A stretch of DNA of 33,016 bases from a virus, in IMG/VR virus record IMGVR_UViG_3300042894_001713, positions 1 to 33,016 of that record; one strand, 5' to 3'. This document shows, in pieces, positions 19,124 to 21,175 of the stretch; position 1 is the first letter of the stretch; the number at the start of each line of letters is the position of its first letter. Position numbers and translations under genes: made by a program. The notes below the pieces were generated by a model. It was not told the DNA's origin and did not search any database. It saw nothing but the letters and a program-made list of their open reading frames with translations.

Positions 19124-19597
<474 letters not shown>

Positions 19598-19600
19598 TCC

Positions 19601-19936
19601 ATGCACCCTGTCATCGACCACACACTTTCAGGCCTGACCGCAATCGTGGCGGGCATCGTCGGCTCCCAAGCACTCCCTGATATGCTCTCGCAGGTTCCCG
19701 CGCCTGACTGGATACAGCAGCTGCAAGGGCCATTCGGCGCGCTCATCGGCCTTGCGCTTGGCCTGTGGTGGATGTCCAAGCGATTGGACAAGGCCGAGGC
19801 AAAAGCCGACAAGCGCGAAGACGAGCGAGACGCCGACCGCAAGAGCCTGATCACCGTCGTCGAGCAAAACTCCAACGTCCTGCGGAATGCGTCGGAAATC
19901 CTCGGCAGCGTCAAGGAGGCGCTGAAAAATCCGTGA
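19601..19936 (+). CDS. Holin candidate
   Basis: 111 residues. Two hydrophobic segments (about 10-30, LSGLTAIVAGIVGSQALPDM, and about 45-62, GALIGLALGLWWM) are separated by a short polar loop, followed by a long charged cytoplasmic tail (KAEAKADKREDERDADRK). This is the shape of class II holins. It sits directly before the M15-type endolysin and overlaps it by GTGA. No sequence family identified beyond topology. Confidence 0.65.
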   Translation: MHPVIDHTLSGLTAIVAGIVGSQALPDMLSQVPAPDWIQQLQGPFGALIGLALGLWWMSKRLDKAEAKADKREDERDADRKSLITVVEQNSNVLRNASEILGSVKEALKNP

Positions 19937-20601: not shown

Positions 20602-20664
20602 TTACGGCTCGACAACCGGCCAAGGCATGAGACCCTGTCGGCGGTATCTTGGTTGGTGCCAGCT

Positions 20665-20704
20665 CGGTCCCTCCGCCGTCATGCGCAAGCTAGCGATGGG
20701 ACCG
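20665..20704. other. Inverted repeat upstream of tRNA (possible RNA hairpin)
   Basis: CGGTCCC (20665-20671) pairs perfectly with GGGACCG (20698-20704). An inner imperfect arm (CATgCGC at 20680 with GCGATG at 20693) extends the stem. No T-tract follows. It might fold in the transcript leading into the tRNA; function unknown. Confidence 0.45.
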
Positions 20705-20715
20705 GGCACTTCAAT

Positions 20716-20787
20716 CGTAGGGTGGCGCAGTGGTAGCGCGGGAGTCTCATAAGCTCTAGGTCGTGGGTTCGATCCCCACCCCTGCAA
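20716..20787 (+). tRNA. tRNA-Met(CAU), initiator-like
   Basis: Full cloverleaf of 72 bases. Acceptor stem has six pairs plus a C1xA72 mismatch (C20716 with A20786), discriminator A20787, no encoded CCA. D-stem GCGC/GCGC, anticodon arm GGAGT-CTCATAA-GCTCT with CAT at 20748-20750, variable loop AGGTC and T-arm GTGGG-TTCGATC-CCCAC. The C1xA72 mismatch and AGGTC variable loop are as in bacterial initiator tRNA. The three consecutive G-C pairs at the base of the anticodon stem are not present, so it is a partial mimic. CAU could also be tRNA-Ile2 if lysidine-modified. It follows the endolysin and precedes a terminator, so it is likely a late or constitutive transcript. Confidence 0.9.
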
Positions 20788-20818
20788 TCTTTCCAGGGTA
20801 ATTCGTGCGTGTCATGAT

Positions 20819-20850
20819 CCCCGCCTCGAAAGGGGCGGGGATTTTATTTT
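20819..20850 (+). terminator. Intrinsic terminator after late operon and tRNA
   Basis: CCCCGCCT (20819-20826), a 6-base loop, GGGGCGGGG pairing, then ATTTTATTTT. A second GGGGCGGG + TTTATTTTG follows at 20851-20871 and leads straight into the early promoter at 20872. Confidence 0.85.
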
Positions 20851-21152: not shown

Positions 21153-21175
21153 GCGCCGGGTTCGATCCCCGGCGC
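21153..21175 (+). other. Hairpin with tRNA T-arm-like sequence between genes
   Basis: GCGCCGGG (21153-21160), loop TTCGATC, CCCGGCGC (21168-21175): an 8-bp perfect stem with the conserved T-loop of tRNA and near identity to the T-arm of the tRNA at 20716. It is followed by TCTTCCTTTTCC. It could be an attenuator, the relic of a tRNA, or a core shared with a host tRNA used as an attachment site. No full tRNA body is present upstream. Confidence 0.6.

Follow-up and report, generated by a model that had tools for sequence, protein, structure and literature searches.

The locus described here raises the question of whether a phage whose sole tRNA has a CAU anticodon uses it in elongation, where codon use is the usual explanation of phage tRNAs, or in the initiation of translation. 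The window, i.e. the whole stretch of DNA analysed (33,016 bases, virus record IMGVR_UViG_3300042894_001713), contains this single tRNA, which was recognised as genuine by the Rfam model RF00005 (60.5 bits, E 6.9e-11). The preliminary description had read from it a CAU anticodon, a C1xA72 mismatch and an AGGTC variable loop, all correctly, and had called it initiator-type.

Setting of the tRNA in the phage genome

The record encodes a large terminase, portal, head protease, major head protein, tape measure and endolysin, together with a RecE-like exonuclease, RecT, a helicase and a primase. A total of 77 related viral loci were found. Since the relatives of the terminase in bacterial genomes belong mostly to Verrucomicrobiota (Luteolibacter, Verrucomicrobiaceae, Opitutae and Chthoniobacteraceae), the host is taken to belong to this phylum. 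The statement that almost all genes lack Shine-Dalgarno (SD) sequences agreed with our count, in which an SD-like match of at least six bases was seen at 1 of the 30 gene starts examined, several of these start positions being approximate. The scarcity of SD sequences was dropped as a reason for carrying the tRNA: no link was shown, and the initiators of Verrucomicrobiota hosts are ordinary. Elsewhere in the record, the ORF at 19124–19597 has a run of PEPEPE repeats at its C-terminus (19520–19597) and is followed by a 111-aa ORF at 19601.

The order at the locus is endolysin, structured RNA, tRNA, terminator and recE (Table 1). In an alignment of five relatives the RNA showed 83% mean identity, and 6 of its 28 predicted pairs were maintained via changes on both sides. 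Within it, TCTTGGTTGGTGCC...CGCCGTCATGNGNAANCTAGCGATG forms a 10-pair hairpin with several compensatory changes. The core of the RNA was matched by six viral contigs in IMG/VR; no Rfam family was found at the gathering threshold, and a loose threshold gave no meaningful E-value and no credible family. Just upstream of recE, a further terminator-like hairpin with a T-loop-like sequence, GCGCCGGG-TTCGATC-CCCGGCGC (21153–21175), is conserved in relatives with the loop TTCAATC or TTCCATC.

Table 1. Features of the tRNA locus, in positions of the window
Feature	Positions	Strand	Basis
Noncoding RNA conserved 5' of the tRNA; its long hairpin spans 20662–20707	20606..20712	+	Alignment of five relatives
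5' leader CAAU preceding the presumed cleavage at C20716, with C at -4, A at -2 and U at -1	20712..20715	+	Sequence compared with RNase P leader preferences (PMC9433436)
Probable initiator-type tRNA (CAU): C1xA72, C11:G24, A29-U41/G30-C40/U31.G39, A73, no encoded CCA	20716..20787	+	Rfam and covariance model scores
Intrinsic-terminator-like hairpin followed by TTATTTT, closing the RNA-tRNA unit	20816..20843	+	Predicted; shared by relatives whether or not they have the tRNA

Five related contigs (G001, G028, L089, L092 and G004) have endolysin, noncoding region, tRNA and recE in this same order, and in all five the tRNA has a 1x72 mismatch. The mismatch is C1xA72 in the first four, with L089 having C3:G70 where the window tRNA has U3.G70. 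In G004, C1xC72 is combined with A11:U24 and a GGG:CCC anticodon stem, i.e. all three hallmarks of an initiator, and CCA is encoded; the acceptor and T arms are nearly identical to those of the window tRNA, whereas the D and anticodon arms are different throughout. Sequence comparison thus indicates that the locus conserves the CAU anticodon and the lack of pairing at 1-72. Two close relatives, G012 and G022, contain the flanking RNA and the terminator and lack the tRNA entirely, which indicates that the tRNA is dispensable and comes and goes. A remnant of an integration site was considered and rejected, the tRNA being complete and located between two phage genes and the G012 unit being intact without it.

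Anatomy and classification of the tRNA

In the acceptor stem (CGTAGGG/CCCTGCA), the unpaired C1xA72 is followed by six pairs (G2-C71, U3.G70, A4-U69, G5-C68, G6-C67 and G7-C66). The D stem is GCGC/GCGC with a 7-base loop, the anticodon stem GGAGT/GCTCT encloses the loop CTCATAA, as in tRNA-fMet, and the AGGTC variable loop, the discriminator A73 and the lack of an encoded CCA complete the molecule. ARAGORN placed the 5' end at 20715, one base earlier than the C20716 given by both the Rfam model and our initiator model (R1); the earlier start probably arises from U(-1) facing A73. The leader agrees with the preferences reported for RNase P, namely U in position -1, a purine in position -2 and C in position -4 (PMC9433436).

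As a yardstick, 93 distinct CAU tRNAs were collected from Verrucomicrobiota genomes. Among these, 36 had purine11:pyrimidine24, the initiator form, and every one of the 36 had AGG:CCU at 29-31:39-41; 30 were mismatched at 1-72 and the other six had U1-A72. The remaining 57 were of the elongator type, with pairs of the C11:G24 type, and 56 of them were paired at 1-72. Given 30/36 against 1/57, and the recurrence of C1xA72 in near relatives of the phage, the mismatch of the window tRNA is not attributable to chance. The one mismatched elongator-type tRNA of the host set (C1xA72; L158, also L473) belongs to Luteolibacter pohnpeiensis; genes for DUF5131 and a DNA methylase lie near it, and its contig, possibly mobile DNA, consists mostly of short ORFs without known function. 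Another oddity is a CAU tRNA of an Opitutae MAG (L156 in G041; CGTAGGT...CACCTGCA, C73), which scored low with all three models described below (best 42.7 bits) and has ordinary CAU tRNAs beside it in the bacterial genome.

Common to the window tRNA and the tRNA-fMet of Verrucomicrobiota are CAU, the unpaired 1-72 end, A73, U8-G9, A29-U41, G30-C40 and AGGTC. The differences are C11:G24 instead of A11:U24, U31.G39 instead of G31-C39 and the lack of an encoded CCA; the 7-nt D loop also differs, yet some host initiators have one. The claim that the three G-C pairs of the initiator anticodon stem are absent was correct as to G31-C39 and overstated otherwise: with AGG:CCU in all 36 host initiators, the core of the stem departs from the host form only at 31:39. 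The second real departure, at 11:24, had gone unmentioned. Both count against an initiator, C11:G24 being the elongator form and U31.G39 standing where all sampled bacterial initiators have a G-C pair. The match of AGGTC to fMet holds in that host initiators share it, but it is weak evidence, as the same loop occurs in 8/57 host and 19/52 viral elongator-type CAU tRNAs.

Three covariance models (initiator, non-initiator and Ile2) were built from 23–24 host and viral sequences each; Ile2 and elongator Met were told apart by C4C5, a rough label, so that the elongator model is in effect a mixed non-initiator model. The window tRNA scored best with the initiator model (79.7 bits), followed by the mixed non-initiator (66.8) and Ile2 (53.1) models. 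Controls of all three kinds were sorted correctly (Table 2). The initiator score is nevertheless lower than that of the canonical initiators tested (96–99 bits). In a position-weight test with positions 1, 72, 11, 24, 29–31, 39–41 and the anticodon masked, the window tRNA leaned towards initiators by +11.5 bits (host-trained) and +13.9 bits (phage-trained), with leave-one-out accuracies of 92/92 and 167/171; G9 and the remaining non-hallmark positions thus favour an initiator overall. Its masked score is higher than that of any elongator (maximum -14.8) and lower than that of any host initiator (minimum 43.5). In other phages, the recurrent C1xA72 hybrids scored +9 to +19 bits, and three mismatched tRNAs of accidental appearance (L186, L210 and L226) were negative.

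Table 2. Covariance model scores (bits) of control tRNAs and of the same-locus tRNA of G004
tRNA	Initiator	Non-initiator	Ile2
L257 (initiator control)	99.4	67.7	42.9
L162 (initiator control)	97.8	68.0	56.8
L159 (Ile2 control)	48.6	84.1	90.4
L189 (Ile2 control)	47.9	89.3	93.9
L153 (elongator control)	70.0	81.5	68.1
G004 (same locus)	57.7	40.4	40.3

These scores bear on two other readings. An elongator methionine tRNA that reads internal AUG codons and whose 1-72 pair has decayed would account for the C11:G24 D stem, for the lack of three G-C pairs in the anticodon stem and for the score of 66.8 bits that the non-initiator model still gives. We regard it as unlikely in view of the 12.9-bit lead of the initiator model, the nearly uniform 1-72 pairing of host elongator-type tRNAs, the lean of the masked test and the maintenance of the mismatch in related contigs, one of them with full initiator hallmarks. 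That the molecule is a tRNA-Ile2, in which C34 would be converted to lysidine and AUA read, is highly improbable even though a CAU anticodon in a CTCATAA loop is common in Ile2: the Ile2 model gave the lowest of the three scores, positions 4–5 are A and G, the group labelled Ile2 by its C4C5 is in addition paired at 1-72, and AUA makes up only 13 of 486 Ile codons (2.7%) in the genes counted, leaving little use for such a tRNA. With no clear elongator or Ile2 score, the 5' end unmoved and the initiator hallmarks of G004 at the same locus, the term initiator-type stands. Since it lacks A11:U24 and part of the anticodon-stem signature, we do not file the tRNA as a canonical tRNA-fMet, but we expect from its sequence that it would work like one.

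Initiator tRNAs in other phages

The preliminary description had considered phage initiator tRNAs uncommon, which our survey contradicts. A scan of IMG/VR for CAU tRNAs, with positions 1 and 72 left unspecified, yielded 93 distinct sequences; 41 had purine11:pyrimidine24, and of these 33 were mismatched at 1-72 and six had U-A. A host-type initiator pattern matched 315 of 50,697 GenBank phage records, at least one of which was already annotated as tRNA-fMet, though some records in both viral collections may contain host DNA. Single tRNA-fMet genes have been published for Sinorhizobium prophages (PMC12429752); an exact-phrase literature search found no paper devoted to the initiator tRNAs of phages.

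One initiator pattern was run on viral contigs and on 147 bacterial genomes of two further phyla. Among 99 distinct viral initiators, G30:C40 was present in 98, U29-A41 in 17 and a 31:39 pair altered from G-C in 14, whereas all matches in the 147 genomes were GGG:CCC or AGG:CCU and 31:39 was never altered (Fisher p 1.6e-6 for the 31:39 change, a statistic that ignores relatedness). Among viral elongator-type CAU tRNAs, C11:G24 with NxA72 recurred in company with AGGTC (6/19 with this loop vs 0/33 others, p 0.0013), one of the six, L186, looking like a gene with a deletion. The hybrid form of the window tRNA, searched for by a pattern of its D arm and anticodon, was absent from all 289 Verrucomicrobiota genomes scanned, whereas a close pattern matched 17 viral loci. 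The absence speaks against a host gene as its recent source. On these comparisons the window tRNA is assigned to the C11:G24, NxA72, AGGTC form, a phage-specific variant. Phage initiator tRNAs as a kind are thus common, and this one has a phage-only form that retains the two contacts on which initiation depends most and differs at positions left unaltered in the bacterial initiators sampled.

The window tRNA resembles phage-encoded tRNA-fMet in being a phage-borne CAU tRNA related to initiators and, as in some other phages, the sole tRNA. Examples are Microbacterium phage A3Wally and the phiLM21-like prophages of Sinorhizobium, which have a single tRNA-fMet or tRNA-Met (PMC12429752). A3Wally, annotated as fMet, and the crAss-like cr116_1 have the same A29-U41, G30-C40, U31.G39 stem; unlike the window tRNA, their ends are U1-A72 and A1xA72, respectively, and their hosts and gene neighbourhoods are different. 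The phage hybrids L088, L090, L091, L166, L173, L232 and L245 share C1xA72, C11:G24, the 7-nt D loop, AGGTC and A73 with the window tRNA and differ from it in anticodon-stem sequence and in encoding CCA. In the 735-kb uncultured phage LR756501 (L103), one tRNA cluster contains three CAU tRNAs in a row whose D and anticodon stems resemble those of initiators; one of the three has an enlarged variable region.

The altered positions could have been selected because they protect an initiator-type tRNA from host toxins or nucleases directed at the initiator of the cell, in which case phage translation would continue during abortive infection. That 31:39 is altered in phages and in none of the 147 bacterial genomes fits this proposal, as do anticodon-loop changes of phage tRNAs, put forward as nuclease evasion (PMC10264068). 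We nonetheless think it doubtful: relaxed constraint in phages accounts for the same changes, we identified no initiator-targeting nuclease in a host of the phage, and phages are reported as a rule not to carry tRNA-fMet where it is a target of VapC (PMC10264068). Equally tentative is the broader idea that in many unrelated phages a recoded initiator keeps only the features most needed for formylation and the P site, the unpaired 1x72 end and G30:C40, changes 11:24, 29:41 and 31:39, and stays active when the cell's own initiator tRNA is destroyed by toxins of host defence.

Proposed function and significance

We conclude that the window tRNA is probably a divergent, phage-specific initiator-type tRNA that would add to the initiator pool during infection. 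The present analysis shows its sequence features, homology, synteny and classification; that it is expressed, processed, charged, formylated and used to initiate translation is inferred. It would be transcribed downstream of the small structured RNA, probably cut at C20716 by host RNase P, supplied with CCA by the host and charged by host MetRS via the CAU anticodon. Formylation would follow because the 1x72 end is unpaired. In E. coli this end is the chief determinant, with help from G2:C71, C3:G70 and A11:U24, and transplanting a C1xA72 end and the G-C pairs makes elongator tRNAs initiate (PMC7949028). The window tRNA keeps the mismatch and G2:C71, has U3.G70 and lacks A11:U24. The retained A29-U41 and G30-C40 pairs would let the ribosomal P site grip the tRNA; 16S G1338 and A1339 grip 29-41 and G30-C40, respectively, and reversal of 30-40 lowers translation in E. 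coli about 20-fold (PMC11497404). On this evidence, the tRNA most likely functions as a working initiator, perhaps of lower efficiency, in addition to those of the host.

General annotation hides such genes, as ARAGORN labels all the surveyed initiator-type phage tRNAs as plain tRNA-Met. They would be ready substrates for tests of initiator-specific nucleases and of formyltransferase recognition. The survey points to 29:41, 31:39 and 11:24 as positions that can be relaxed outside a cell genome and to 30:40 and the unpaired 1-72 end as rarely relaxed, so that variation among phage initiators may serve as a natural test of the determinants that mutational genetics defined in E. coli. For the phage itself, an initiator-type tRNA as the only tRNA would point to initiation, not elongation, as the step that it serves.
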